Source: Hydra vulgaris (taxonomy: Eukaryota > Cnidaria > Hydrozoa > Anthoathecata > Hydridae). From it: a DNA stretch of 64,000 nt. The stretch lies in the NCBI RefSeq assembly GCF_038396675.1, contig NC_088930.1, positions 37,078,501 through 37,142,500 of the forward strand, read 5' to 3'. The translations under genes and the position numbers were made by a program. The notes beneath the pieces were generated by a model. The model had not been told where the DNA came from and searched no databases. It worked only from the letters and a program-made list of their open reading frames with translations. Numbering within the stretch: the stretch's first letter is position 1; the number at the start of each line of letters is the position of its first letter. Shown here piece by piece: positions 27,631-48,290 of the stretch.

Positions 27631-28067
27631 ATAGAAGTATTAGTTATAACTAAAATAATAATAATAGTATAAAAACAAACTGGAATAATAATAATATAGT
27701 TTAATAAACTTTAATTTGCTTAAAAGCTTTAATAATACTAGTTTAATAAGCTTTAATTTACTAACAATAGTTAATGAAACATAGCAAGTTTTTTTAATTC
27801 AAGTTGAAAAGGTAGGCTGTTCTATAATTTGATGGTTTTATAGATATTCGACCATGTGTTTGAGTGAAATCATAATGGGTAGTTAACTTCAGATTATTTA
27901 CACAACTATTATTAATAGTTATTAAATAATTAAAATAAACGGTCAAAGTGATAAAGTTGAAATGAATTAAAATAAAAATAACAATAATAATAGTATTAAC
28001 AATAGCTATATTAAAGAAACTATAATAAGATCAATAGTAAAAAGTTTTAATATTTATTATGTAATAA

Positions 28068-28249
28068 TTTTTTTTTTGTACGTCCAGCTAGAGACACCTG
28101 CTGCTGAAACCAGGTTTACACAGGGCCCTAGAAGGCGGTGTTATTAGGGAGTTGAAACTCCGCGTATGACCTACTTAAGGGTTTAATTGCCACTCAACCA
28201 CTAAAGAACAGATACTACACTTTATCTTAGCCATTAGGCCAAGAAGCGG
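28068..28249 (-). mobile_element. U2-snRNA-headed short retroposon (SINE)
   Basis: Read on the minus strand, a 172-bp body (28249 to 28078) ends in a 10-nt A run (28077-28068). A perfect 10-bp target duplication, tgtaataatt on the plus strand, flanks it at 28060-28069 and 28250-28259; the low copy overlaps the A run by two bases. The first ~50 bases match the 5' end of U2 snRNA: CCGCTTCTTGGCCTAATGGC, then AAGTGTAGTATCTGTTCTT, including the GUAGUA branch-point-pairing sequence. After that the sequence leaves U2 and continues with an unrelated body ending CAGGTGTCTCTAGCTGGACG. A U2-derived head, a foreign body, a poly-A tail and a TSD fit a retroposon mobilised by LINE machinery, as known for SINEs with snRNA-derived heads. 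A U2 pseudogene chimera made by template switching is the alternative. Confidence 0.88.
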
Positions 28250-28308
28250 TGTAATAATTACTATTAAGTAATAACTAATAATTATTAATAGTATTTATGG
28301 TATTAACA

Positions 28309-48121: not shown

Positions 48122-48290
48122 TTGAGGTGCCCCAACAAACTTGCGGTAAGGCGTTTAACTCAGAAGTTAATGCCTACTTCCATATCGATAACAATAAAAT
48201 ACCCTAAACTCGTTTCGAACCCTAGAATTTTTGCTTCTAAAGCAAGCGCTCTAACCACTGCGCGATGGCAGCTTATGAAGAGACTGCTTC
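48122..48290 (-). mobile_element. tRNA-derived SINE
   Basis: The minus strand begins gctgccatcgcgcagtggtt with a good box A (CGCGCAGTGGTTAGAG, 48264-48249), an anticodon-arm-like CTTGCTTTAGAAGCAAA, and box B CTAGGGTTCGAAACG (48225-48211). The acceptor and T-stem do not pair properly and a ~90-bp unrelated body follows, so this is a SINE head and not a tRNA gene. Confidence 0.7.

Follow-up and report, generated by a model that had tools for sequence, protein, structure and literature searches.

A SINE of Hydra vulgaris that inserts into U2 snRNA genes and probably owes its U2 head to that insertion site

The heads of short interspersed elements (SINEs) are normally regarded as captured RNA polymerase III (Pol III) promoters. 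A retroposon on the minus strand of the 64-kb stretch of Hydra vulgaris DNA analyzed here (the window) begins with the 5′ end of U2 snRNA, and such a head makes no sense as a captured promoter because the promoter of a U2 gene lies upstream of it. Where, then, does the head come from, and what transcribes the element? The initial annotation of this locus had identified the source of transcription as the key question, and rightly so. No Pol III promoter pair is present in the family consensus, and full-length copies reside in U2 genes. We conclude, with a probability of roughly 0.83 for the joint reading, that co-transcripts from the U2 promoter, consisting of U2 nucleotides (nt) 1 to 49, the element, and poly(A), are retrotransposed, that the U2 head is the mark of off-target insertion, and that the window copy, which has undergone internal shortening, is an old insertion made off target by a SINE whose target is U2 genes.

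The features of the window copy are collected in Table 1. The G+C content of the window is near 28% (21 to 34% per 2-kb window). Within the 64 kb, the Rfam U2 model (RF00004, gathering threshold of 46 bits) has a single match at the gathering threshold, at positions 28034 to 28250 of the minus strand (50.7 bits, E value of 4e-7 for the window). This alignment is genuine for model nt 1 to ~47 only and is forced in its 3′ portion, which is the partial 5′ match that the initial annotation had expected. The window head is identical to host U2 at 44 of 47 bases over nt 1 to 47, as judged by alignment to the family consensus, whose head is that of host U2; the assignment of a U2 5′ head to this retroposon is therefore upheld. 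Neither the Rfam alignment nor the consensus alignment extends U2 homology of the window copy past nt 47, and a U2 snRNA gene or plain pseudogene was rejected because homology stops there.

The perfect 10-bp target site duplication (TSD) is present as annotated, with base 28250 serving both as the last base of its 5′ copy and as U2 nt 1. A 10-bp repeat abuts the ends by chance in 23 of 20,000 shuffles of the AT-rich flanks (~1 in 870) and is found at similar spacing at 82 of 62,500 window positions. By itself, the window TSD is suggestive, not decisive; the retroposon status of this copy is settled because of the family evidence, beyond the TSD alone. The tail, annotated as A10, is A8 proper, or A10 with two TSD bases included. 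The foreign body of ~120 bp is not a whole body, being the 3′ third of a body of ~366 nt, of which ~200 nt is missing at the copy's internal junction. The window body is 79 to 89% identical to dispersed copies (79 to 84% to the longer matches) and holds only one of the three tandem units of ~20 nt (AAACCCTTAAATGGGC) present in the consensus.

Table 1. Coordinates of the window copy and its parts (window positions)
Feature	Position	Strand	Basis or description
Window element	28070-28250	(-)	U2 head + body + A8
TSD, 5′ copy, aattattaca on (-)	28250..28259	(-)	Exact 10-bp direct repeat with 28060-28069
U2 snRNA head, nt 1-47	28204..28250	(-)	Rfam RF00004 and family-consensus alignment
Private internal junction, U2 nt 47 / consensus nt ~252	28203..28204	(-)	Alignment to consensus
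SINE body, 3′ third, 126 nt	28078..28203	(-)	Alignment to consensus and to dispersed copies
3′ tail domain (CTTCTAGGGCCCTGTGTAAA...)	28078..28135	(-)	Common to the family and ORF1-only elements in U2 genes
A8 tail (A10 including two TSD bases)	28070..28077	(-)	Sequence
TSD, 3′ copy, tgtaataatt	28060..28069	(-)	Exact match to 28250-28259

The genome searched comprises 911.5 Mb in 15 contigs. With the window element as the query, there are at least 61 matches (itself included, with head and body pieces counted apart), a lower bound from the scoring of 40 of 408 candidates. In 20 of the 61, the match is to the head and a body match follows some hundreds of nt downstream; the window copy is therefore a short form. 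The majority consensus, built from 50 of 73 distinct copies, is 415 nt long, comprising 49 nt of U2 and 366 nt of body. Its U2/body 5′ junction (U2 nt 40 to 49 plus body nt 1 to 13, up to 3 mismatches) occurs at 111 places, and a reversed control of this pattern has no match genome-wide. The first 27 nt of the body match at 80 places, 71 of which are joined to U2 nt 40 to 49. All 50 body 5′ ends with 0 or 1 mismatch are joined to U2, so that no headless form was found among these 50 best ends. The other 9 of the 80, each with 2 or 3 mismatches, are outside the listed junctions, and some of them may be among the 11 junction matches beyond the listed ones. The initial annotation had proposed a multicopy family with independent TSDs and a genomic copy count as a check on it; the 111 junctions, and TSDs in 23 of 60 copies (see below), bear this out, and the outcome of a single-copy pseudogene was not seen. 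Exact junction or tail patterns had no match in the viral and bacterial contigs searched, nor had the U2 pattern in the viral contigs searched. Among the papers searched, no title or abstract opening described a SINE that targets U2 genes.

The window copy's own short internal junction occurs, with up to 3 mismatches allowed, at one place in the genome, which is the window copy itself. A junction present only once is what a one-off template switch would leave, in which the reverse transcriptase (RT) jumped from SINE RNA to U2 at this locus as in U6/L1 chimeras, and the initial annotation had kept this option. The uniqueness holds for the internal junction but not for the element or for its family-wide U2/body junction: U2-headed full-length relatives are abundant and have one common junction, and an internal loss within a U2-headed copy accounts for the window copy. 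We therefore consider a one-off chimera very improbable. U6/L1 and other snRNA/L1 chimeras are independent events that usually do not propagate (PMC13174262). As described there, they are like the window copy in carrying an snRNA 5′ end on a poly(A)-tailed insertion with a TSD, but the Hydra SINE has one fixed junction at 111 places. Junctions that are independent and variable between copies, the trait of L1-style snRNA chimeras, were not found, as one junction is shared by 71 of 80 body 5′ ends.

Could the element instead be a tRNA-type SINE, transcribed by Pol III from a box A and box B of its own? The window copy has a box A (TGGTTGAGTGG) and a box B (GTTTCAACTCC) 42 nt apart, which is the only strict pair on either strand of the 64 kb (the strict pattern uses an 11-nt box A) and is matched in 4 of 4,000 body shuffles. 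The family consensus, however, contains no box A/B pair of the kind that defines tRNA-type SINEs (SINE2). Its only exact box A, at nt 141, has no suitably spaced box B; no box B with ≤2 mismatches is present, and the consensus reads CGGCTGAGTGG / GTCTCGGCTCC at the positions of the window copy's boxes. Pol III transcription is refuted at the family level and is hardly credible as the source of the window copy, whose box pair most likely arose by decay. The idea that U2 stem-loop I had been retooled as a box A was dropped, since host U2 has the same UAAU loop. Another SINE in the window, at 48268 to 48100 on the minus strand, has a tRNA-like head (GCGCAGTGGTTAGAGCGC ... GGGTTCGAAACG); comparison of the U2-headed SINE with the body of this element, and with the 3′ ends of LINEs within the window, gave no relation above shuffles.

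Contig C2 carries the host U2 genes as a tandem array with a unit of 366 bp. Uninterrupted U2 (nt 28 to 64, up to 2 mismatches) matches at 117 places, and all 100 of the matches listed are on C2. Among the loci at which this array was sampled, L013 to L017 have the order spacer, U2 nt 1 to 49, body, A(n), and then U2 from nt 35/36 onward, with some substitutions in the flanking U2 of L014. A full-length SINE thus sits between U2 nt 49 and a repeat of nt 35/36 to 49, and the U2/body junction falls where the target duplication ends. The upstream 170-nt spacer is 169 to 170/170 identical in four of the six copies flagged as lying in U2 genes and 133/170 identical, ungapped, in L014; the sixth, L032, lies behind a LINE end and lacks the upstream spacer. 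Exact junctions of body, A(n), and U2 nt 36 to 50 number eight, all on C2. The non-long-terminal-repeat retrotransposons Keno and Utopia target U2 genes, the U2 3′ flank of Utopia starting at nt 39 and the site of Keno being given as the same, and Keno has been reported from hydra (PMC4640811). The SINE insertion is at or beside this published site, with an offset of ~3 nt: the U2 3′ flank starts at nt 35/36 for the SINE and at nt 38/39 for the LINE in L073. This LINE resembles Keno and Utopia in its insertion into U2 genes, with an APE-type endonuclease and RT and a flank at nt 38/39, whereas those are autonomous LINEs and the Hydra element is a SINE with a body of ~366 nt and a flank at nt 35/36.

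Copies outside the array reveal what kind of molecule gave rise to them. Of 90 loci fetched, 17 were repeats (the same place twice or identical copies at different places). The 73 distinct copies comprise the 6 flagged in U2 genes, 4 set aside for a 5′ flank shared with another copy, and 63 termed off-array, i.e., lacking U2 gene flanks by the test of our script; the 63 include L031 and L082, which are within the 20.4- to 21.4-Mb region of C2 (the sequence of L082 is incomplete). Off-array copies start at U2 nt 1 in 43 cases, at nt 2 in 7, and at nt 3 to 6 in 6, which is 56/63 at nt 1 to 6. The remaining seven start at nt 35 (four), nt 38, nt 9, and nt 14 (one each), and several of the nt 35 to 38 starters sit in head-to-tail trains of U2-site elements. 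The end of the U2 spacer (TTCAGTT) is upstream of none of the 63. TSDs of ≥8 bp flank 23 of 60 head-complete copies, compared with 48 of 3,540 mismatched flank pairs, and 20 TSD-bearing copies remain once shared flanks are dropped; 37 of the 60 have no TSD by this strict test. Most copies that reach the family 3′ end continue into an A-tail, many with unrelated TSDs. Based on their starting positions, the absence of the spacer, and the TSDs, we conclude that the dispersed copies were made from RNA beginning at U2 nt 1.

Dispersal of pieces of the U2 array at the DNA level, by segmental duplication, would account for the identical flanks in L020/L051/L052, L024/L057, and L096/L103 and for identical sequence at different places (L048/L054/L056 and L032/L033). 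Against it are the missing U2 spacer in all 63 off-array copies, the A-tails in most 3′-complete copies, and the unrelated TSDs in many, and we give it next to no credence as the general explanation. Among the 50 copies that entered the consensus, divergence from it has a median of 1.9% for the copies in U2 genes (n = 6) and ranges from 1% to 17.5% for off-array copies, with a median of 4.8% (n = 44), and the window copy is among the diverged members. This age pattern is as expected if the array turns over while steadily releasing copies. In the 20 TSD copies, the A-tail is followed immediately by G in 10 cases, by T in 8, and by C in 2. G is more frequent here than its share of 22% would predict (binomial P = 0.005), which is a weak hint that a nick like that before U2 G36 is also used off target.

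The U2 site is not occupied by the SINE alone. It also holds LINEs with an APE endonuclease and RT (Pfam Exo_endo_phos and RVT_1 are present in L073, L074, and L075) and, at L069, L070, L071, L072, L077, and L080 of the C2 array, ORF1-only elements of ~2.1 to 2.5 kb in which the longest open reading frame is 400 to 535 amino acids (aa) and no RT was seen. We take the latter to resemble the "half-a-LINE" class of protein-coding, nonautonomous elements. The off-array LINE and ORF1-only copies were read at their short 5′ ends. Across the genome, the most frequent ORF1-only 5′ end is joined to U2 at 42 places, 36 of them on C2; of the five off-C2 ends fetched (from six listed), four start at U2 nt 1 to 4 with non-U2 flanks before them and the fifth is in a train. 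The L073-type LINE 5′ end has 31 junctions with U2, 17 on C2, and of four off-C2 ends fetched (from 14 listed), three have the whole head, after a non-U2 flank in L127 and after stacked U2 pieces in L128 and L129, and one is in a train. Three different 5′ ends therefore carry the same kind of head, which makes separate template jumps unlikely and points to co-transcription from the U2 promoter.

This bears directly on the most serious alternative. SINEs with heads derived from U1 or U2 snRNA (SINEU) were reportedly described in crocodilians by Kojima in 2015 and are said to insert preferentially into Mariner-N4_AMi and to have been mobilized by Tx1-Mar. The Hydra family, too, is a multicopy set of retroposons with independent insertions and a 5′ head derived from the U2 snRNA 5′ end. 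By analogy, its head could have been gained once by a template jump and inherited ever since, with insertion into U2 genes acquired later, and the constant junction in the joined copies is what an inherited head would give. We nevertheless regard this as unlikely: the junction lies where the target duplication of U2 genes ends, the consensus lacks a box A/B promoter pair, and the sampled off-array 5′ ends of ORF1-only elements and LINEs carry like heads, which would require several independent jumps to have stopped at almost the same position. The Hydra head differs from that of SINEU in that it is flanking sequence of the gene that the element itself targets. Its source is the insertion site, not the SINE itself.

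A relationship to LINE 3′ ends, suggested in the initial annotation, was found for ORF1-only elements and not for the RT-bearing LINEs that could be compared. The SINE tail (CTAGGGCCCT...TTGGT) matches the ORF1-only tails of L079 (57/64 aligned columns) and L077 (44/48), each with 0 of 1,000 shuffles as good; the tail of L071, the commonest ORF1-only element, has a weak match (9/9, 23 of 1,000 shuffles). In the LINEs L073 and L075 no match to the SINE tail exceeded shuffles, and none was apparent by eye in L076, L078, or the RT-bearing element of L079, so that the SINE's 3′ tail is missing from every RT-bearing LINE for which the 3′ end was available. Between L077 and the L075 LINE, which has both endonuclease and RT, the ORF1 products share 53% identity over 200 aa. 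We infer that the partner RT is supplied by a resident LINE.

In the U2 co-transcript model, the U2 promoter (Pol II) would transcribe U2 nt 1 to 49 and the element as a single RNA, as its 5′ ends suggest. The RT of a resident LINE would copy this RNA by target-primed reverse transcription through recognition of the poly(A) and the common 3′ tail. On insertion into another U2 gene, the U2-derived segment of the cDNA would blend into the target without trace and may assist in joining of the 5′ end; on insertion elsewhere, that segment would remain as a head. Such an off-target copy is probably dead because the U2 promoter has been left behind. The internal ~200 nt of the window copy would have been lost during or after its own insertion. 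Some observations count against this model. The SINE's tail was not found on any RT-bearing LINE examined at its 3′ end, and its match to the commonest ORF1-only element is weak; a U2 transcript is expected to reach the U2 3′ end, and an RNA 3′ end at poly(A) is unexplained; in addition, 37/60 copies lack a TSD, 7/63 do not start at U2 nt 1 to 6, and 9/80 body 5′ ends are not among the listed junctions.

Elements of the R2 kind are further precedents. R2 SIDEs and R2/R1 hybrid SIDEs are short, nonautonomous elements of a multicopy RNA gene that rely on host-gene co-transcription and a resident LINE and that begin with a ribozyme that removes the host part (PMC3414825). On this description, the Hydra SINE is likewise a short element of a multicopy RNA gene, with a proposed reliance on a host co-transcript and LINE. 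It differs in that no ribozyme was detected in L015, for which an Rfam scan (E value up to 0.5) gave U2 matches only, and in that the host leader seems to be kept whole from nt 1. R2 RNA is itself released from a 28S co-transcript through ribozyme cleavage, some lineages keeping up to 36 nt of 28S, and it has been suggested that this retained leader base-pairs with the target and thereby primes synthesis of the second strand (PMC3774820). As presented there, the R2 leader lineages resemble what we propose for the Hydra SINE, a host-gene leader left on the retrotransposed RNA, but R2 uses the 28S rRNA gene and has a ribozyme-set end, whereas the leader of the Hydra SINE reaches the first nucleotide of the gene.

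If our reading is right, the Hydra family offers an answer to the puzzle of a head without a promoter, namely, that the head is a transcribed host gene, kept since the element lives there. This would be one route by which a mobile element gains a small-RNA head, and it suggests a ribozyme-free parallel to R2 co-transcription that uses Pol II. Mapping of RNA 5′ ends also becomes a test of how snRNA-headed SINEs originate. One small-RNA gene array carries LINEs, ORF1-only elements, and SINEs at a single site, and these could form a guild that depends obligatorily, as parasites, on the Pol II promoter of U2, with the untrimmed U2 leader as a homology arm for joining of the 5′ end at the next U2 gene and all dispersed copies as dead escapes that bear this leader; we consider the case for such a guild evenly balanced. 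If it exists, no member needs its own promoter, and target-site co-transcription, rather than template jumping, would be a general origin of SINE snRNA heads.

Several individual copies have unusual structures. A second partial U2 5′ end or piece precedes the head in L023, L024, L026, L053, L090, L091, L119, L128, and L129 (for example, cttctcggattgcttctcga|ATTGCTTC), as if the RT recopied part of the U2 template when synthesis ends. Trains of U2-site elements arranged head to tail, with only ~15 nt of U2 target sequence between neighbors, are found at 18.95 to 20.79 Mb of contig C8 (L088, L089, and L130), in L032, and in L132. L108 (C2:35224217) is a U2-headed copy that ends within the body, without an A-tail and with a possible 7-bp TSD (GCGGGTG), perhaps as a result of internal priming. 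L031 (C2:20573874), in the interior of C2, is a U2-headed copy with TTAGGG repeats directly 5′ of it.
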